In this document: piece by piece, positions 21,849 through 32,883 of the stretch
How the letters are laid out: each line of letters begins with the position of its first letter
How positions within the stretch are numbered: position 1 is the first letter of the stretch
Source of the DNA: Streptomyces sp. SLBN-118
GTDB lineage: Bacteria > Actinomycetota > Actinomycetes > Streptomycetales > Streptomycetaceae
Direction of reading: 5' to 3'
DNA length: 64,000 bases
NCBI RefSeq assembly: GCF_006715635.1
Contig: NZ_VFNP01000002.1
Coordinates: 3,410,001 to 3,474,000 of the forward strand
The notes under the pieces: model-generated
What the model was told of the DNA's origin: nothing
The model's input: only the letters and a program-made list of their open reading frames with translations
Databases searched by the model: none
Program-made: the position numbers and the translations under genes

Positions 21849-22856
21849 TCAGGCGCGGGTGACACGGGCGTGCCAGACGTCACCGTCGCGGGTGAGACGC
21901 GCTGGGAGCTCGTGGGTACGGAGAGCCCCCTCTTCCAGCCACTCGTGGATCAAGGCACGGAGGATTTCGAGTGCCGGGGATTCGGCGTGGTCGGTGATGA
22001 TGTGCTCGTCGGTGACGATGGCCGCGTGGGCGGTGCCGTCCGGAGTGGGGGAGCCGATGCCGATGCCGGTGCCTTGGCCGATGGTCGCTTCGAGCAGGCC
22101 GGCGGGTTCGGCGGCGATCAGCCAGTTCTTCATGTGGAAGTAGTCGGAGTCCGGCACTGGGGTGGGCTCAACGTGAGCCGTCTCGCGCAGGGCGGCGAAG
22201 AGCGATGCCACGGTGCTGGGCTCGTGATCACCAAGGATCGCGAGCAAGAACTCTGGCCGCTGCGGATCGACAACGCGGGTAACGCTGCCTGGTGGGCTGG
22301 CCGCGATCATGGGGGTGTATCCGCCGTGGTGGATCTCGACTTGGTGTGGCTGATGCTTGTCATCAACGGTGATGCGGGCAATCGCATAGGCGCCCGGCAG
22401 GTCGGCGATGCGTACGCCGCAGAGAAGGATGCCGCCTGGCTTCAGTTGCTGGAGCCAGGCGTGTGGGATCGCCGGCGGAGTCGTGCCGACGAGGATGCGG
22501 TCATAAGGGGCACCTTGCGGATACCCGAAGAGACCGTCGCCGACAACCACGGTGACCTGGTGACCGTGCTCGGCGTAGAGCGCCTCGGCCCGCTTGGCGA
22601 GGCTGGGTTCGGTCTCAACGGCGGTGACCCGTCCGTCGGGGCCGCCCAGTTGGGCGAGGAGCGCGGCGGAGAGACCGGAGCCGATGCCGATGTCCATGAC
22701 GCGCGCACCAGGGCGGACATCGAGCATCCGCAGGTGCCGGTGGGTGACGACGGCAGGAGTGCACGGGCGTACGGCACGGCCGTCAGCGCCATGGAACTGC
22801 TCGGTCGGCACGGCGTAGATGGCGCGGTCGAGCTCTTGACTGGAGGTGTCGGGCAT
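21849..22856 (-). CDS. PIMT-like O-methyltransferase of a lasso peptide cluster
   Basis: The product has 335 residues. The N-terminal part is a protein-L-isoaspartate methyltransferase-like domain: an early Thr-Pro-Ala (CTPAVV), SAM motif VMDIGIGSG (53-61), VEKE-like AVETEPSLAKRA, and APYDRILVGTTPPAIPHAWL with LKPGGILL. The C-terminal 130 residues (AIVTDEHIITDHAESPALEI onward) are absent from housekeeping PIMT and match the extended form found in RiPP clusters. Known relatives methylate an Asp side chain in lasso peptides or graspetides, which then closes to an aspartimide. It is the last gene of the cluster, 15 bases after the peptidase gene. Confidence 0.88.
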   Translation of the reverse strand: MPDTSSQELDRAIYAVPTEQFHGADGRAVRPCTPAVVTHRHLRMLDVRPGARVMDIGIGSGLSAALLAQLGGPDGRVTAVETEPSLAKRAEALYAEHGHQVTVVVGDGLFGYPQGAPYDRILVGTTPPAIPHAWLQQLKPGGILLCGVRIADLPGAYAIARITVDDKHQPHQVEIHHGGYTPMIAASPPGSVTRVVDPQRPEFLLAILGDHEPSTVASLFAALRETAHVEPTPVPDSDYFHMKNWLIAAEPAGLLEATIGQGTGIGIGSPTPDGTAHAAIVTDEHIITDHAESPALEILRALIHEWLEEGALRTHELPARLTRDGDVWHARVTRA

Positions 22857-22871
22857 CGAGCGGTCCTCGGT

Positions 22872-23291
22872 TCAGATGCGAAGGGTGACGTGGAAGGGAC
22901 GGTCTGGGGTATTCGGCTCCCCGACAGGTTGGGTATCCGCTTCGACCCAGGCGTGGGACTCGCACGGGTCGAAGCGGCAGCCTATGCACCAGTCCACAGC
23001 CTTGCCGTGCAAAGCCGAGGCCATAAAGGCAGCCAGGGACATCTCCAGGCAGGCGGCGCGGCTGGGGAAGAACTGGCTGGCCCAGTCGCGTGCGGCAACC
23101 ACTCGTCCGGCTTCCGCTGCGGTCGCGGGGCGGCGGGTGCAGCGCTTGGCGGTATGGGCGAGGGCGAGGGTGACCCGTAGCGGGGCCACTTGCACCAGCG
23201 TGGTGGCCAGGGCGAGTGCGGCGATGGCCACGAAGCGGTCGGACAGGGGCGGACGGGCGGTCCGGGCGGGCACGGCCATGGGGATGCTCAA
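22872..23291 (-). CDS. Lasso peptide leader peptidase (B2 protein)
   Basis: The product has 139 residues from TTG 23291, which overlaps the previous stop as TTGA; ATG 23279 is the alternative. The transglutaminase-like catalytic residues of PF13471 are visible: Cys81 in SRAACLEMSLA and His113 in CESHAWVEA. A WCIGCRFDP segment precedes the histidine, as in the family. The enzyme removes the leader from the precursor delivered by the RRE protein. It lacks its own recognition domain, the normal split state in actinobacteria. Confidence 0.9.
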   Translation of the reverse strand: MSIPMAVPARTARPPLSDRFVAIAALALATTLVQVAPLRVTLALAHTAKRCTRRPATAAEAGRVVAARDWASQFFPSRAACLEMSLAAFMASALHGKAVDWCIGCRFDPCESHAWVEADTQPVGEPNTPDRPFHVTLRI

Positions 23292-23575
23292 CGGTGCCAC
23301 CTCCTTCGGGCGGGGACGTACAGCATGTGGCGGTCGCGGAGCTGCTGGGCGAGGTCTCGCATGTCGGCGCGTACACGGTCGGCATCGGCGCCGAACAGGG
23401 CTGCCACGTGATCGGCGGCCTCGTCGACGGTGGCGCCCTCGGCCAGGTATCGCCACCACAGAGCGCCGGAGAAGGTGAGGGCGTACCACCGCCCCCTGCC
23501 GCGCAGGTCGAGCAGCATGCCGCCGCGCTCTGTGATCGTGACGCGCACCGTGGGCGTTGGCCGGAGGTCAAGCAT
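23288..23575 (-). CDS. Lasso peptide RRE protein (B1, PqqD-like)
   Basis: The product has 95 residues and is a PqqD-like winged-helix fold: beta strands in VRVTITERGGMLLDLRGRGR, WYALTFSGALWWRYLAEG, then helices in VDEAADHVAALFGADADRV and DMRDLAQQLRDRHML. It binds the precursor leader at the YxxPxL motif and presents it to the peptidase. The gene overlaps the end of the cyclase gene by 8 bases and the start of B2 by 4. Confidence 0.92.
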   Translation of the reverse strand: MLDLRPTPTVRVTITERGGMLLDLRGRGRWYALTFSGALWWRYLAEGATVDEAADHVAALFGADADRVRADMRDLAQQLRDRHMLYVPARRRWHR

Positions 23576-25368
23576 GCGAAACCCCCGCCGCCGTGCTGAT
23601 GGGCGTGCTGGTGCGGTGCTGGCGCAGCCAAAGCTCGGCGGCGATGAGCGCTTCGAGCGCGGCAAGCTCTCCGGGTACGCCAGCCGCCAGACGGTCCAGT
23701 TCGACACAAGCGGCGGCGGCGTCGATCCAGCCTTCGGCGGCCAGTTCGCTGCTCGTGAGGAGATCACGCAGGGAATCGGCGTGCCGGCGCAGACCGGTAT
23801 AGGCGTTGCCGTCGTAGGCGCCTTTGGTGCGCCGCCGCAGAAGCCAGTCAGGTACGAGGTCGTGGAGGGCGACGCCGAGCAACGGCTTCTGAACGGTGGT
23901 GGAGGCGCGGGAGGACGCCGGTACGGCCATCGCCGCGCGGACGACGGCGTTATCGAGGTAGGGGGCGTGGTGCGGCAGGCCCAGCGCATGAGCTTGGTTG
24001 CGCAACTCTGCCTCGTACGTGCCGAATTCGCGCAGCTCAGCCCAGGCGCGGTGGCGGCTGGTGTCGATCGGGCGAATGCTGCAGTGTTCGGCCGCGATCG
24101 CGGCGCGTATCGAAAGGTGGCGGCGGGCTTCCGGGGTCAGCCAAGTGTGGAGCCCGGAAGCCCTGACCCAGTGGAGCCGGGCCGGGTGTTCTGGCCTCGA
24201 GCTGGTCGGGTTGCCGGCGATGTCCTGGGCGAGGTGCTGGAGGGCCATGGAGTGGGTGGTGCGCGAGAGTCGGACGGCCGCCACGACGACCGCGTACATC
24301 GGCAGATGGCGCAGACGGGCCCGGGCCAGAGAGCGTGGCCGATCAGCGCCGATGCGCTATGCCACGAGCCAGGTCGGCGAGGTAGTGCGGGGAGGTGGCG
24401 AGCAGGGTGTCGGCGCCGGAGCCGGTGAGGTGCACATCGCTGCCGTGGGCGATGCACGGGCGCTGATAAGCGGCGCGCATGCGCCACCGGGCGGCATCGG
24501 GAAACGGCTGGTCGGTAGAGGGGGCGTCCAACAGCCCGGCGAAGAACAGGCCCTCGTCGTCCGTCACGAGTGCGTGATGCAGGCCCGGCCGGTCCGCAGC
24601 CGCTCGCTGGGCGTACGCCACGTCCTCGTTGGTACTCGTGGCGTCCGCATCGGTGACGGCGAGGACGTCCGCGCCTGCGGTGCCAGTGGCCAGCAGTACC
24701 AGCGAGGTGGAGTCGAGGCCGCCGGAGAAGTCGGCGGTCAGCTTCCCTGCCGCTTGAGCTCGGCTGGTGACCGCAGCGACGAGCGCCTCGCGGAGTTCTG
24801 CCGCCGCCTCGGTGAAGCTCAGTGTTTGGGGTGCCTCGTACTCCTCGATAGAGTGCCGGCCATCGTTGTCGATGATGAGGACGTGGCCGCCGGGCAGGCG
24901 CCGTACGCCCGCGAACGCGGTTCCGTCTTCCGTGACTTCGGGCACGGTGGGGCACACGAGCCGCGCGGTCACCGAGGCATGGTCCAATTCCGCGCCAACA
25001 CGGCACGCAAGGGCTCGGGCCGACGTTGACCAGTGAGTGCGCTCGGGCGTCTCGAAGAAGTACACCGGACGCGTTCCGGCCACGTCGGTGATGACCGACG
25101 TCGTGGCCCCGTTGGCTGCCACCACCCAGTAGCTTCCGGGCCAGGCCGTCAGCGCTGACCACTGCCCGGAGCGGGCCGCGTGCAGCCCGTCGCGCAGCTG
25201 CCGCTCGGTGGCGTAGCAGTTACCCACGACCGCCACCCGTAACGATCCGCCGCTGACGACCCGATGCATGGTGCCGACCGGTGTGCCCTGTATGACGGGG
25301 GCGCGAGGGCCGGACCAGAGCGCCGACGAATCCGCCGACGGCTGTCCAGGGCTGCTCAAGCGGAACAT
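23568..25368 (-). pseudogene. Lasso cyclase (asparagine-synthetase-like), read in two frames
   Basis: The first frame (25368 to the stop at 24343) has the glutaminase-like N-terminal domain and the ATP-pyrophosphatase motif FSGGLDSTSL, and ends after TGSGADTLLATSPHYLADLARG. The second frame carries the rest of the synthetase domain (RARLRHLPMYAVVVAAVRLS onward to the stop at 23568) with EAELRNQ and HHAPYLDNAVV. The switch lies between 24343 and 24359 and fits one extra base. Joined, the protein is about 600 residues, the normal size. The cyclase activates the core Asp side chain and forms the macrolactam. A true frameshift would kill the cluster; a sequencing error is possible. Confidence 0.85.
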
Positions 25369-25439
25369 GCCTTCCCTTTCTGATGGCTGCCAGGTGCTGG
25401 GAGGAGCGGCATGCCCCGCCCAGCACCCGTCAGGTGGCC

Positions 25440-25586
25440 CTACTCGAAGTAGCGCCCCTTGTCGGCACTGTCCTCGGCGTACTTGCCAAGCGTCACCTTC
25501 GACACCACGTCCAGATCGATCAGCTGGGGAGCGGTGTAGCCCTCACGGACCTCGGAGCCCTGCTCTTCACTGACGTGCTCATTCAT
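25440..25586 (-). CDS. Lasso peptide precursor
   Basis: This 48-codon gene was found by translating the gap upstream of the cyclase. AAGGAAG lies a few bases before ATG 25586. The leader (residues 1-33) has the RRE-binding motif YTAPQL (17-22) and the conserved Thr32 two residues before the cleavage site. The predicted core is residues 34-48, GKYAEDSADKGRYFE. The only acidic residue that allows a 7-9-residue ring is core Asp9, giving a Gly1-Asp9 macrolactam. Arg12, Tyr13 and Phe14 are possible steric plugs. Asp6-Ser7 lies inside the ring. No cysteine, so it would be class II. Confidence 0.85.
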   Translation of the reverse strand: MNEHVSEEQGSEVREGYTAPQLIDLDVVSKVTLGKYAEDSADKGRYFE

Positions 25587-26133
25587 CCGTGCTTCCTTTC
25601 GTCGATGGGATGGGAGCCGCCTCCATTCCGTCCGTGGCGGACGGTCGTTGAGGCGGACATCTGGAGTCGGCGACGTAAGGTCGAGGGATTAGCCGCGAGC
25701 ATGCGATCACCTGGGGCAGCGCCGCGATGATCTTGAATTCGGCCCATACCACCTTGTGTTGTCCGGTCCTCTCAGTGCCCCAGCCGTCGGCGTACTTCGA
25801 GACGAGAAGGAGTCCCCGTCCGCTATCGCTGTCGTCGTCCGGTTCGCGGCGCTGTGGCAGGCCAGGCCCGGTGTCGTGGACCTCCACACGCAGCAGGTGA
25901 TCAGCGACCGAGATCCCCAGTAGAAATCCGGTTGCACTGCCGTCGCCATGCACCACCGCGTTGGTGGCAAGCTCCGACACACACAGGCGGACGTCATCGC
26001 ACCGATCCGCGATTCCCCAGTCTGCGAGCGTGCCCTTGGCGAACTCCCGTGCTGCACGTACCGATGCAGGGTCGTGGTCGAACGCCCACTGCCGCGCCAG
26101 TGGTTGCCCTGGGGCGCGTGGATCCGATGCCAT
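25579..26133 (-). CDS. RsbW-like ATP-binding protein upstream of the lasso precursor
   Basis: The product has 184 residues. The GHKL ATPase domain is in 1-135: N box ELATNAVVHGDG, G1 VHDTGPGLP, G2 DSGRGLLLVSKYADGWG. The last 50 residues are an irregular Pro/Arg-rich tail unlike the family. The stop overlaps the precursor ATG by 8 bases, so translation of the two is linked. It may be a regulator of the cluster, or simply the gene behind which the cluster was inserted. Confidence 0.8.
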   Translation of the reverse strand: MASDPRAPGQPLARQWAFDHDPASVRAAREFAKGTLADWGIADRCDDVRLCVSELATNAVVHGDGSATGFLLGISVADHLLRVEVHDTGPGLPQRREPDDDSDSGRGLLLVSKYADGWGTERTGQHKVVWAEFKIIAALPQVIACSRLIPRPYVADSRCPPQRPSATDGMEAAPIPSTKGSTDE

Positions 26134-26313
26134 GACGTCTCCGTCTCGGGTGGAAGTCCTTGTTCCGTGCGGTGCACCTCAACAGAACCGCCCCCCGCAG
26201 ACGCGAACCAGAGCAGAATTGCCGCACGGATGAGGCATTCATGACGCACAGCAGGGCATGACCTGTGGTGTTTCGACCTAGGAAAACGCAGTCACTCTCG
26301 GGAGATTCGACCC

Positions 26314-27469
26314 ATGGCGCTGAAACGGCACAGCTTCGTGCGCCGCCGCCTCACGGCGGGCTTCACGCAGGAGAGCTTGGCCGAGGCGTTGAACGTCGAG
26401 CGTTCCACCGTCTCCCGTTGGGAATCGGGGAAGGCGGCTCCGCAGCCGTACCTGCGGCCACGCCTCGCTGCTGAGTACCGACCAACTGAGTGAAGTCCTC
26501 GTGGTGAGGACCGACGACGAAGCGCCGGCCACCGAGCGGACCCGATACGCGATGCGCTACCCGTCACGAGTGGACCTCGTCACGATCGCCGAGTTACGAG
26601 GCGGCATGCAGACGCTTGCCGAGCGCTATGACCGGATGCCCTCCGCCACACTCCTCGGCCATGCGGGACAGCACGTCAGCCAAGTCACCTTCCTTGCCGG
26701 CGAAGCCCCAGCGGGGCGCGTGCAGCGGGAGATGCGCATTCTCCAGACCGACGCTGCCACCTTCATGGGCCAGCTGGTCTGGGACGCTTCCCAGCGTCAC
26801 GACCATGCGACCGCGCGGTCGTACTACGCGCAGAGTGTCGAGGTGGCGCGGCATCTGCGCGACCGGACTGCGGAGGGCCACGCCCTCTTACGTACGTGCT
26901 ACGTCGCTCTCTACGGTGCCAACGACTACCGCGAAGGGCTCGAACTCGCGCTGGAGACCGCCCGTACGACGCGATACACGAGTCATGTCCTCACTGGTCT
27001 TGCGATGCTGCACGCCGCTGAGGCGCACGCCTTCCTCCAAGAGGGCCGTCAATGCGAGCGAGCTCTGGCGGGCGCGGAAAGGCATCTGGAGCAGGCCAAC
27101 AGCTCGGACGCCGCCCATGATCTTCTCTCCCCCACCCACTTCGGACGGCTGGCGGGCTCCTGCTACCTCACCCTCGGCGACTACCGCAAAGCCCAGCGGC
27201 TTCTTGAGGAGACTGCGGCGGAGCTGCAGGACCGACGCAAGTCCCGCGCGATCGTCCTCGGCAATCTCGCGCTGTCCTGGATCCGCGAGGGAGACCTCGA
27301 CGCCGGGCTGGCCACGTTCAATGACGCCGTAAACGAACTGCAGGGCACCCGGGGAGGTGGTGGGATGAACATTGTCTTCCGGGCTGCCCGCGAGCTGCGT
27401 CCCTGGCGGAGCGAAGCGGCAGTGCAGGAGGCTCAAGACAGGCTCATGGCTCTGATGGAAGCGGCATGA
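26314..27469 (+). pseudogene. XRE-family regulator with TPR-like C-terminus, frameshifted
   Basis: ATG 26314, preceded by GGGAG, opens a helix-turn-helix (FTQESLAEALNVERSTVSRW) that stops at 26493. The rest (SLLSTDQLSEVLVVRT and a long TPR-like helical part with NYR/YALL repeats up to 27469) is in the next frame. The switch is near 26455-26470 and fits one extra base. GTG 26501 could still start a shortened protein without the DNA-binding domain. There are two TTA leucine codons (26594 and 26888), so expression would depend on bldA tRNA. It is divergent from the lasso cluster and may once have controlled it. Confidence 0.8.
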
Positions 27470-29190: not shown

Positions 29191-32100
29191 ATGAGGGAGC
29201 CGTTGCACACGTCCAACTCGGTGTCGCCGGATGAGAGTTGGCGGGTCTGTCTGCTTCGTACGCGGGACCGCTCGGGCCGCCCGCTCGGCGCGGGGGTGCT
29301 GCTTCCCGGGGGACTGGTCCTCACGTGCGCCCATACGGTGCTCTCCCGGCCGGGACGCGAGGGCACCCGCACCCCCTTCGACACGGTCTATGTCGACGTG
29401 CCCGGCGCCGCCGCGCTGTCCGGTGAGGCGGCGGAGCCTCTGCGCGCCCGGCTGCTGCGGGAGTATCTGGTCCTGCCCACCGCGCACTTCAGCGGGGATC
29501 TCGCCCTGCTCAAGCTGGACCACGAGCCGCCGGTGCCGCATGCCGTGCTGCACCGCCAGATCCCGGCGCGCAATGAGCCCGTCCACTTCACCGGCTATCC
29601 CGAGGACCTGCCGGGCGGTGAGCATCTCGACGCCCGGCTGATGGGGCGCGGCGGGCCCGCGCACCGGCCCGAGTGGGTACAGCTGGACACCGAGGGCTCG
29701 CCCTATGTGGTCCGGCACGGCTACAGCGGCGGCGGGGTCGTGCACAGCCGCTCGCGCCGTCTCATCGGTATCGTGGCCCACCAGTTCGGCACCCCGCAGG
29801 CACCCGTGCGGCGGGAGCACGCTTACATGATCCCGACCGAGACGGTGCTCAAGCACCTGCCGCTGGAACGGCTCGGTCTGACCGTCACCGGCCCCCGCGC
29901 CGTCTCCCGCGATGTCGCCGTGGCACCCGACCGGACCGCGTCCGGCCGCGTCCCCGGTCTGCACCGCAGGCTCACCCGCTGGCTGGACGGCGAGCCGGAC
30001 ACCGACCCCGTGGAGCTGGTCTTCGCGGGTGAGGGCGAGCACGCGCTGCTGCACACGATCCGCTCGGCGCTCACCCTCGCCGACCGGGAGCAGAGCCCGC
30101 CGTCCGCGTCCGGGAGTACGGTCGGCGAGCCGCAGGTGGGCAGCATCGACATCGCCGTCGACGCCACCAACCGCACGGCCGAGGATCTCGCGGTCCACGC
30201 CGCCGAGCGGATCGGTCTGGAAGGCAGCGGCTCGCCCCGCGCGCTCCTCGCTCAGATCGCCGAGGAGAGCCCGTCACTGATCGCCGCCTTTCTCGCCGTC
30301 GACCGGTCCGCCTCCGAGGACGCGGAGATCACGGCTCTGCTGCGCGCCCTGCTCGCACGGGGCGACAGCCGGCTGCTGCTCGTCTTCAGCGATCCCGGCT
30401 CCCCGCTGCTCGCGCGTGTACGGAGCGAACTCCTCGGCCCCGGGTGGGCCGAGCGCCGCACGGACCGGCTCGCCGCTCGTGTGAACCGGCTCGCCGAAGG
30501 CGAGCTGCGATTACGGCAGCTGCCCGCGCGCCCGGCCACCGCGGGCCGTCCCGCACCCCGGCGCCCCGAGGACCGGTCGCCCAAGCTGCGCCGCGAGCTC
30601 GAACAGCTCTGCCGTGGCGGCCCGTTGTTCGACTCACCCGCACTGCCGCACGCCCTGTTCCGGCTCTCCGTCGACGTCGAGACGGCGCTCCTGGACGCCG
30701 AGGCCGCCGAGCAGTCGCTTGCCGGGCCGCTGGGCCCGCACGAGTTCGTCGTCGAGCCGCCGGGCGACGGGCTCACCGATCTGCCCGGGGTCGCCGTGCG
30801 CGACCCGGACGCCCTCGTCACCGCACCGGCGGGACCCCATCTGGCGGGCGGCGACCGGCTGCACCAGCAGTACGAGGTGGTGGGCCCGTTCGGCCAGGGC
30901 AGCCACGGGCAGGTGTATCTCGCCCGCGATCTGCTGCTGGACAACCGGCCGGTGGCGCTGAAGGGAATCCTCGACCCGGGCAATCCGGCCGCGGTCCTCC
31001 AGGCCCATCAGGAGCGGCTGCGGCTGGTCAGCCTCAACCATCCCTCGGTGATCCGGGTCGTCAACTACGCCCGTCATCCGTCGGCTTCGGCCGAGTTCAT
31101 CGTGATGGAGTTCGCCGACGGGGCGCCGCTGGAGTGGGTCGCGGCCCGTATCGGCGGGCAGCGTCCGCCGTTCTCCGGGCCCCGTGTGCGCGAGTTCATC
31201 GTCGTCTACGGGCTGCTGATCCTGGACGCGCTCAGCTATCTGCACGACCAGGAGGGCCTCGTCTACGGCGATCTCTCCCTCACCAACGTGCTGCACTGCG
31301 GCAACGGCATCAAGCTCATCGACGTCGCGGGCGTCCGCAGACCCGGCACACCGGGACCGGTCAGCCACCGCCCTCCGGAGACCGGCGCCTCGGGCGAGAT
31401 GACGACCGCGGGCGATCTGTACACCGTCGGCGCGGTCCTGGACGAACTGCTCGCCAAGGACCCCGTGCCGCCCGCCGACCTCGGCACCCAGTCCCTGGAG
31501 CGCGCCCTGCGGCGCGCCATGGCACGCGACCCCAAGCGGCGGTACGCCACCGCCCAGGAGATGGCGCTCCAGCTGCGCGGAGTACTGCGCGAACTGCGTT
31601 CCCTGCGGCTCGGCGAGGAGACCTTCGAACCGTCGCCGCTCTTCGACCCGGCCGCCACCGCCCTCGACGGGCAGCTGGGCAAGGCCCCGCCGCTGACCCG
31701 CTGGCGGGCCGACGGAAACGGCGGCCCGGGCGCGCAGGTGCCGGCGCCGGCCGAGGCCGCGGTGGCGCTGCCTGTGCCCAAGGCGGACCAGCAGGACCCC
31801 AACTGGAAGGAGCTGCAACGTACTTCGTACGCCGATCCGGCCGGTCTGCTCCAGCTCAGCGACGAGTGGCTTCCCTCTCCCGAACTGCACCTGCTGCGCT
31901 GCCGCCTCCATCTGGAGCTCGCCCGTGACCAGCAGCGCGGCCGCGACCAGCAGCTGGTCGCTGCGGCGATGGAGCTGGACCGGGCGGGGCGGCGGCTCGG
32001 CGACCGGGCGGCCTACGACTGGCGTCTGGACTGGCACCGGGGCCTGACCCGGCTCGCCCACGGCAGCGTCCGCCAGGCGCTGACCTGCTTCGACGACGTG

Positions 32101-32883
32101 TACGACGCGATTCCCGGCGAGTACGCGCCCAAGCTCGCCCTCGGCTACTGCCACGAGAAGCTCGCCGACTCCAGCCGGGACGAGGAGATCCGCGAAGGGC
32201 ACGAGCAGCAGGCCATGCGCTTCTACGACGCGGTGTGGCGGCGCAACCACGCGCTCGGGAGTGCCGCCTTCGGCCTGGCCCGTATACATCTGGCCCGCCA
32301 CAGCCCGGACCTGGCCCTCGCCTCGCTCGACGGCGTGCCGCCCGACTCGCGGCATCGCACCGCCGCCCGTACGGCGATGGTCCGTATCCACGCCGGCCCG
32401 CCCGCCGACGGGTCGCCGCCGACCGTGGCTTCGGCGGTGCGCGCCTACGCCGCCCTGCGCCGGCTCGTCAGCCACGAGGGCCTCACCGACCGGCAGGCGT
32501 ACGAACGGCTCACCGCCCAGCTCCTGGAGCTGCTGCTCGAACTGGTCGCCACCGCACGGGACAGGGACCCCCTGGAGGAGCTGCGTGGCTCGCTGCCGCC
32601 CGGGATCCCCGTACCCGCCGGTGAGCGGGAGCTGCGCGAACAGCTCTCCGCCTGCTACCGCAAGCTGGCCGAGCAGGCGCCGCGCACCGACCTCGCCGAG
32701 GACGCCGCGCTCGCGGAGGCGCTGCTCGACAATGCGTACCGCACGCGCCCCCTGGGACTGAGACACGACCGGGACGGGAAGGGGAACCGGCACCGCGGCT
32801 CCGGCGCGGGCCGCGGGCCGGGGTCCCTTGCGGTGTGGCTGCCGCGCCGGTTGCGGCTGCGCGATTCGGGGGAGGGCGCATGA
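29191..32883 (+). CDS. Trypsin-like protease fused to a PknG-like kinase and TPR domain
   Basis: The product has 1,230 residues. Residues 20-225 are a trypsin-like domain with His48 (TCAHTV), Asp103 (GDLALLKL) and Ser179 (GYSGGGVV). Residues 260-440 are a helical adaptor-like region. Residues 560-800 are a kinase: QGSHGQVYLA loop, Lys591 (PVALKGI), VYGDLSLTNV with Asp694 and Asn699, and Asp711 in DVAG in place of DFG. The C-terminal 400 residues are TPR-like and resemble PknG (YDWRLDWHRGLTRLAHGSVR). Like PknG it lacks the His of HRD. One TTA codon lies at 30511 (Leu441). No membrane segment. It starts an operon with the next two genes. Confidence 0.88.
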   Translation: MREPLHTSNSVSPDESWRVCLLRTRDRSGRPLGAGVLLPGGLVLTCAHTVLSRPGREGTRTPFDTVYVDVPGAAALSGEAAEPLRARLLREYLVLPTAHFSGDLALLKLDHEPPVPHAVLHRQIPARNEPVHFTGYPEDLPGGEHLDARLMGRGGPAHRPEWVQLDTEGSPYVVRHGYSGGGVVHSRSRRLIGIVAHQFGTPQAPVRREHAYMIPTETVLKHLPLERLGLTVTGPRAVSRDVAVAPDRTASGRVPGLHRRLTRWLDGEPDTDPVELVFAGEGEHALLHTIRSALTLADREQSPPSASGSTVGEPQVGSIDIAVDATNRTAEDLAVHAAERIGLEGSGSPRALLAQIAEESPSLIAAFLAVDRSASEDAEITALLRALLARGDSRLLLVFSDPGSPLLARVRSELLGPGWAERRTDRLAARVNRLAEGELRLRQLPARPATAGRPAPRRPEDRSPKLRRELEQLCRGGPLFDSPALPHALFRLSVDVETALLDAEAAEQSLAGPLGPHEFVVEPPGDGLTDLPGVAVRDPDALVTAPAGPHLAGGDRLHQQYEVVGPFGQGSHGQVYLARDLLLDNRPVALKGILDPGNPAAVLQAHQERLRLVSLNHPSVIRVVNYARHPSASAEFIVMEFADGAPLEWVAARIGGQRPPFSGPRVREFIVVYGLLILDALSYLHDQEGLVYGDLSLTNVLHCGNGIKLIDVAGVRRPGTPGPVSHRPPETGASGEMTTAGDLYTVGAVLDELLAKDPVPPADLGTQSLERALRRAMARDPKRRYATAQEMALQLRGVLRELRSLRLGEETFEPSPLFDPAATALDGQLGKAPPLTRWRADGNGGPGAQVPAPAEAAVALPVPKADQQDPNWKELQRTSYADPAGLLQLSDEWLPSPELHLLRCRLHLELARDQQRGRDQQLVAAAMELDRAGRRLGDRAAYDWRLDWHRGLTRLAHGSVRQALTCFDDVYDAIPGEYAPKLALGYCHEKLADSSRDEEIREGHEQQAMRFYDAVWRRNHALGSAAFGLARIHLARHSPDLALASLDGVPPDSRHRTAARTAMVRIHAGPPADGSPPTVASAVRAYAALRRLVSHEGLTDRQAYERLTAQLLELLLELVATARDRDPLEELRGSLPPGIPVPAGERELREQLSACYRKLAEQAPRTDLAEDAALAEALLDNAYRTRPLGLRHDRDGKGNRHRGSGAGRGPGSLAVWLPRRLRLRDSGEGA

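Follow-up and report, generated by a model that had tools for sequence, protein, structure and literature searches.

A probably decayed group 1 lassimiditide cluster in Streptomyces sp. SLBN-118, with its PIMT homologue still open

We examined a 64,000-nucleotide stretch of the Streptomyces sp. SLBN-118 genome (contig NZ_VFNP01000002.1, positions 3,410,001 to 3,474,000; hereafter the window), in which a lasso peptide cluster expected to make a ring with an internal aspartimide had been proposed (the original prediction). On the minus strand the genes run in the order ATPase-domain protein, precursor, cyclase C (25368 down to 23568), leader-recognition protein B1, leader protease B2 and PIMT homologue (Table 1), and the lasso genes have this order in L017, L018, L020, L022, L023 and L024 as well. 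The gene content, the core, the breaks in two genes and the relatives of the locus are established from sequence. On these grounds the locus is likely to be a group 1 lassimiditide cluster in a state of decay; for this group PMC13001092 gives as hallmark the motif D(T/S)AD in residues 6-9 of the core, with Asp6 modified and Asp9 in the ring.

Table 1. Features of the lasso peptide locus and its surroundings (positions in the window)
Feature	Position	Strand	Remarks
Extended PIMT homologue (PAMT), 335 amino acids (aa), predicted Asp O-methyltransferase	21849..22856	-	PCMT domain at 41-149 plus C-terminal extension
B2, transglutaminase-like leader protease	22872..23306	-	NF033537 84 bits (cut-off 33); start codon unsettled, about 23300
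B1, PqqD-like leader-recognition protein, 95 aa	23288..23575	-	PF05402 42.8 bits (cut-off 23.4); NF033530 52.4 bits (below cut-off 70)
Lasso cyclase C, C-terminal part, other frame, 243 aa	23568..24299	-	NF033561 positions 350-559; 80% / 75% identical to L017 / L018
Frame-disrupted junction inside cyclase gene	24300..24360	-	Matched stretch in a single frame in six of eight relatives
Lasso cyclase C, N-terminal part, 341 aa, early stop	24343..25368	-	NF033561 positions 19-345; 82% / 73% identical to L017 / L018
Lasso precursor A	25440..25586	-	48 aa; YTAPQL in leader, Thr at leader -2
Core GKYAEDSADKGRYFE	25443-25487	-	Gly1-Asp9 ring and Asp6-Ser7 aspartimide, both predicted
Precursor leader	25488-25586	-	YTAPQL, Thr at -2
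ATPase-domain (RsbA/anti-sigma-like) protein	25579..26133	-	Its end overlaps the start of the precursor; also the neighbour in L017, L018, L020
Regulator, N-terminal helix-turn-helix fragment, frame-broken	26314..26493	+	Single 388-aa frame in L017, L018, L020
Regulator, C-terminal part, other frame	26501..27469	+	11 bases fewer than three relatives in alignment

The precursor was read as originally predicted, with its leader motif, the Thr at -2 and a core of 15 residues. This core, GKYAEDSADKGRYFE, has D-S-A-D at positions 6-9, with Asp9 at the position of the ring Asp. For lasso rings of the usual size only Asp9 fits and Asp6-Ser7 falls inside, so that ring closure at Asp9 alone is upheld as predicted. 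The precursor is not a chance reading frame, because its leader-plus-core pattern occurs once in the window and a search of about 5.8 billion proteins matched 22 other precursor clusters (E 1e-20 to 1e-6). Thr at leader -2 and Ser7 are present in 23/23 precursor clusters, the window's own counted, and the core is identical to GKYAEDSADKGRYFE in 22/23 (21/22 without the window's own). The same core is found behind very different leaders, the mean pairwise identity over the 23 clusters being 0.99 for the core versus 0.49 for the last 30 leader residues in an ungapped comparison. As the search requires shared five-residue words, diverged cores are under-sampled. Among the fetched loci the cores are GKYAEDSSDQGRYFE (L020), GRYAEDSQDQGRYFE (L022), GKYAEDTQDKDRYFE (L023) and a longer one beginning GTIAEDSQD (L024), and homologous clusters from two other families of the class carry the DTAD cores GTAAHDTADMNTARYY (L042) and GAADDDTADMNTAKYY (L044). 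Position 7 is Thr in L023, L042 and L044; across all precursors seen, Asp6, Ser/Thr7 and Asp9 are constant and position 8 is variable. Four core fragments had no match in open full-text papers, a weak negative since supplements lay outside the search.

The extended PIMT-like methyltransferase of the original prediction is also present, and by its family scores it does not go with housekeeping PIMT: its top NCBIfam scores are for TIGR04188 and TIGR04364, families associated with ribosomally synthesized and post-translationally modified peptides (RiPPs), both below their own cut-offs, and the housekeeping families score lower again and also fall short of theirs (TIGR00080, 89.6 bits versus a cut-off of 159.05). 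The predicted structure is confident (pLDDT 93), and its top fold match is 1DL5, the Thermotoga maritima PIMT, which likewise joins a PCMT domain to an extra C-terminal domain. The match covers nearly the full length (370 columns, E 7e-15) but is modest, with a TM-score of 0.45, a root-mean-square deviation of 11.9 and 15-17% identity. The T. maritima enzyme serves as a reference for RiPP PIMTs (PMC13001092, PMC10787088) and is placed by PMC10787088 in the RiPP PAMT clade. Near the C-terminus of such PIMTs PMC13001092 describes a consensus motif WXXXGXP, which the proteins of L017, L018, L019, L021, L022 and L023 fit. The corresponding region is WLEEGAL in the window and in its sister locus L008, with W and G kept and P replaced by L, WLDEGAL in L020 and WREAARP in L024. 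Elsewhere in the window's genome there are six more PIMT-like matches (G000, L002-L007; 36-39% identity, open frames of 229-455 aa), which are possibly other RiPP-associated methyltransferases.

Both leader-processing genes of the cluster are present, B2 scoring above its NCBIfam cut-off and B1 above the Pfam PqqD cut-off only. The cyclase gene, which had been taken as intact, is in fact two open reading frames in different frames, neither of which reaches the NF033561 cut-off. An intact cyclase, as required for a group 1 lassimiditide cluster, is thus lacking in the window and present in six of eight relatives (L017, L018, L020, L023, L024 and L042), which keep a single frame throughout the matched stretch. 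In the other two, L022 and L044, the frame is broken too, at other points; that of the Streptomyces cluster L022 (L022:5167-6899) lies close to the window's break position, and L044 (L044:5402-7160), of the DTAD type and with its PIMT open, lies in a 4.9-Mb genome that consists of one contig. Within the window's cyclase zone the alignment shows small gaps that differ in sign and are separated by some 30 bases. The two frames could be taken to yield separate chains that together form an active cyclase, given that the second starts with ATG and that each half matches its own part of the Asn_synthase domain. However, a restart at this ATG would lose or scramble about 20 middle residues that are present in L017, and the relatives have either one frame or breaks at other points, which makes a split enzyme highly improbable.

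A stand-in cyclase elsewhere in the genome was looked for and rejected, as NF033561 gave nine matching pieces, none above the cut-off. Two of the other places were read (L084 and L086), with weaker ones on C1 and at C2:360508 left unread. The first, L084, proved to be an ordinary AsnB-like protein. The second, L086, resembles a cyclase, but its SGGxDS loop is not intact. The altered loop in L086 (L086:1402-3762) reads GADLSGGSASG, and the protein may no longer form amides.

Comparison with L008, Streptomyces sp. NBC_01481, places these breaks in their surroundings. This genome is for the most part collinear with the window (DNA identity about 90-96%), but its sequence jumps from the match of window position 26552 to that of 22911. 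It therefore lacks the 3.64 kb matching window 22912-26551, which hold the regulator start, the ATPase gene, the precursor, the cyclase, B1 and nearly the whole of B2. Of B2 only the final 12 residues still find a match, and the PIMT is whole and 84% identical to the window's. The C-terminal cyclase half found nothing better than 36% identity in the whole L008 genome. Each of six flanking-gene queries, and likewise the PIMT, gives one unbroken alignment to L008 with no change of frame; one of the six covered the initial 600 residues of a larger protein (1230 aa), and an EF-hand query, although in the wrong frame, aligned end to end. This 1230-aa protein (window 29191-32883, plus strand) combines trypsin-like, protein kinase and PknG-type TPR domains, and its first 600 residues are 94% identical in L008. 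Between the window and L008 the PIMT has a ratio of non-synonymous to synonymous substitution (dN/dS; NG86 method, rough, with the B1 row and the L023 core row left out as out of frame) of 0.28, compared with 0.04-0.17 for three flanking stretches, and it therefore changes faster than its neighbours, yet unlike a dead gene.

It could be argued that the breaks are sequencing or assembly errors and that a working cluster makes the aspartimidylated lasso peptide. Precursor, B1, B2 and PIMT are indeed all open, the core is the commonest one, and the PIMT dN/dS shows no relaxation. Two separate genes are affected, however, and the regulator is 11 bases short; the opposite-sign gaps in the cyclase are unlike one homopolymer slip; the flanking-gene queries show no frame change; and the cyclases of L022 and L044 are broken too. 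With two broken genes beside unbroken ones, real decay is favoured over error, and we regard a working cluster hidden by such errors as decidedly unlikely.

Of the features of a group 1 cluster, the locus has the leader motif with Thr at -2, D(T/S)AD with Asp9, B1 and B2, and a PIMT with an extra C-terminal domain. By analogy with known lasso and lassimiditide biosynthesis, in the intact relatives B1 would bind the leader at YxxPxL and B2 would cleave after the leader, with Thr at -2. Cyclase C would then activate Asp9 and close the 9-residue Gly1-Asp9 ring around the tail KGRYFE. The PIMT homologue would methylate Asp6 of the threaded peptide, and the Asp6 ester would collapse onto the Ser7 amide to give the aspartimide. 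The computed [M+H]+ values are 1717.78 for the lasso peptide, 1731.80 for its methyl ester and 1699.77 for the aspartimide. In the window genome the precursor, B1, B2 and PIMT remain readable, and the strain probably does not make the mature peptide, because cyclase C and the regulator are frame-broken. The aspartimide lasso chemistry of the original prediction thus appears to hold for the class of the cluster, as judged from D-S-A-D, the ring Asp9, the RiPP-type PIMT and the DTAD cores of L042 and L044, but probably not for production by this strain.

The outcome of the chemistry may also differ. The PIMT product could be mainly isoaspartate instead of a stable aspartimide, if Ser7 steers hydrolysis otherwise than Thr7, and the ring, larger by one atom, could then unthread. 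Changing Thr7 of lihuanodin to Leu gives a 3:1 preference for isoaspartate, and unthreading, according to PMC13352647 and PMC13001092. Ser is chemically close to Thr, however, and its presence in all 23 precursor clusters suggests that it is functional, so we consider a mainly isoaspartate product fairly unlikely.

Several points weigh against the reading of the locus as a decayed lassimiditide cluster. No decay is seen in PIMT, B1 or B2, and the PIMT dN/dS of 0.28 is below that of pairs of whole-cluster strains (0.39-0.52 for six pairs). An assembly error could be the source of the breaks, and L086, as a second cyclase-like protein of the genome, leaves a residual chance of a stand-in. The proline of WXXXGXP is Leu in the window, L008 and L020, and Ser7 in place of Thr7 could alter the outcome of hydrolysis. 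We nevertheless hold a decayed copy to be the likely state of the locus.

We compared 15 loci that carry a related PIMT, comprising the window's own, L008, a further eight from 392 Streptomyces genomes and another five found among 394 genomes at class level. The cyclase is in one frame at six of them (L017, L018, L020, L023, L024 and L042) and broken at three (window, L022 and L044), while at four the fetched stretch is free of lasso genes (L008, L019, L021 and L043); two could not be assessed, with L040 on a contig that ends before the cyclase and the L041 match in two frames near a contig end. The whole genomes of L008, L019 and L021 were searched with the C-terminal cyclase half, and L043 was judged on the fetched stretch. 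Among the 392 Streptomyces genomes, the PIMT is present in 6/6 that have a cyclase at or above 55% identity (the own genome and that of the query counted), and 2/9 PIMT carriers lack such a cyclase. It is found in 1/4 genomes with a cyclase at 37-40% identity, the other three giving no PIMT match at 1e-60; these cyclases may belong to other lasso families. Among 61 relatives the PIMT occurs in the own genome and G021, and a PIMT profile run at 1e-60 on 396 genomes of the phylum matched the own genome alone. The cyclase matched in 37 of 355 genomes of the family at 1e-50, exceeding 55% identity in the own genome and G021 alone and lying at 32-40% in the others. A plasmid home for the PIMT was rejected, as a search of 72,556 plasmid records at 1e-40 gave no match. 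The PIMT of NPDC005407 (P0027), 84% identical, is a candidate for a further orphan.

L019 and L021 share an orphan PIMT locus, with about 86% identical upstream DNA. A small precursor beside these PIMTs was looked for and rejected: of 28 small open reading frames close to the PIMT of L019, three matched L021, all over the PIMT gene or its end, and two runs of the precursor query (E up to 1 and up to 0.01) found no match at either locus. At least 66 PIMT proteins besides the window's own were collected from a capped set of 8000 scored candidates, of which 57 entered the fold alignment and 63, longer than 300 aa, the tree; there the L019 and L021 proteins belong to a supported group of eight that also includes other Streptomyces and further proteins. 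Between L019 and L021 the PIMT dN/dS is 0.33 at a dS of 0.66, compared with 0.39-0.52 for the six pairs of whole-cluster strains, and the gene at this orphan locus is under purifying selection.

The loss of lasso genes with the PIMT kept, together with selection on the orphan PIMT, suggests a role of the enzyme apart from production. Compatible with decay of the cluster, the PIMT could be an immunity enzyme, with aspartimidylation silencing the mature peptide to the benefit of non-producers near producers. This would fit the PIMT-only loci, the open PIMTs beside broken cyclases in the window, L022 and L044, the selection at the shared orphan locus and, in the 392 Streptomyces genomes, the presence of the PIMT in all six with the closer cyclase and its occurrence in two of nine carriers without one. 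TceM and LihM act solely on the threaded peptide (PMC9266682; for TceM also PMC13001092), and PMC13001092, which calls the function of the aspartimide in lassimiditides open, voices protection as one guess. On the other hand, no bioactivity of the peptide is on record, the orphan enzyme may act on some other substrate or be a last relic, the numbers are small, and three of the four genomes with a 37-40% cyclase show no PIMT match, which leaves immunity a tentative and on balance doubtful explanation. The fuller scenario, that the PIMT outlives the cluster, silences a widely shared, near-invariant peptide and so protects non-producers from producing kin, with the window strain midway, is unlikely in our estimate.

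The cluster is ordinary as such, and its value lies in the natural experiment that it offers on the purpose of the aspartimide enzyme. PIMT-only strains and one core behind many leaders give a genomic handle on the idea that the aspartimide protects the producer, which can be tested directly. The lead is corrected in one practical respect, in that mass spectrometry on the window strain would probably find nothing.

PMC10787088 counts 67 lasso clusters with such PIMT enzymes. With the two characterised lassimiditides, compared by description, the window cluster shares the ring motif Asp6-(Thr/Ser)7-Ala8-Asp9, closure at Asp9 and an extended PIMT homologue in the cluster; it differs in having Ser7 instead of Thr7, a 15-residue core and WLEEGAL, and in that its cyclase and regulator are frame-broken. 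The Asp-Ser of the original prediction is therefore a variant relative to these two peptides but no novelty, since 7/58 mined lassimiditides have Ser7 (Cao et al. 2023, as cited in PMC13001092), and GKYAEDSADKGRYFE may already be among these seven. Sharing Ser at core position 7 with members known from genome mining, the window cluster belongs to a kind already described.

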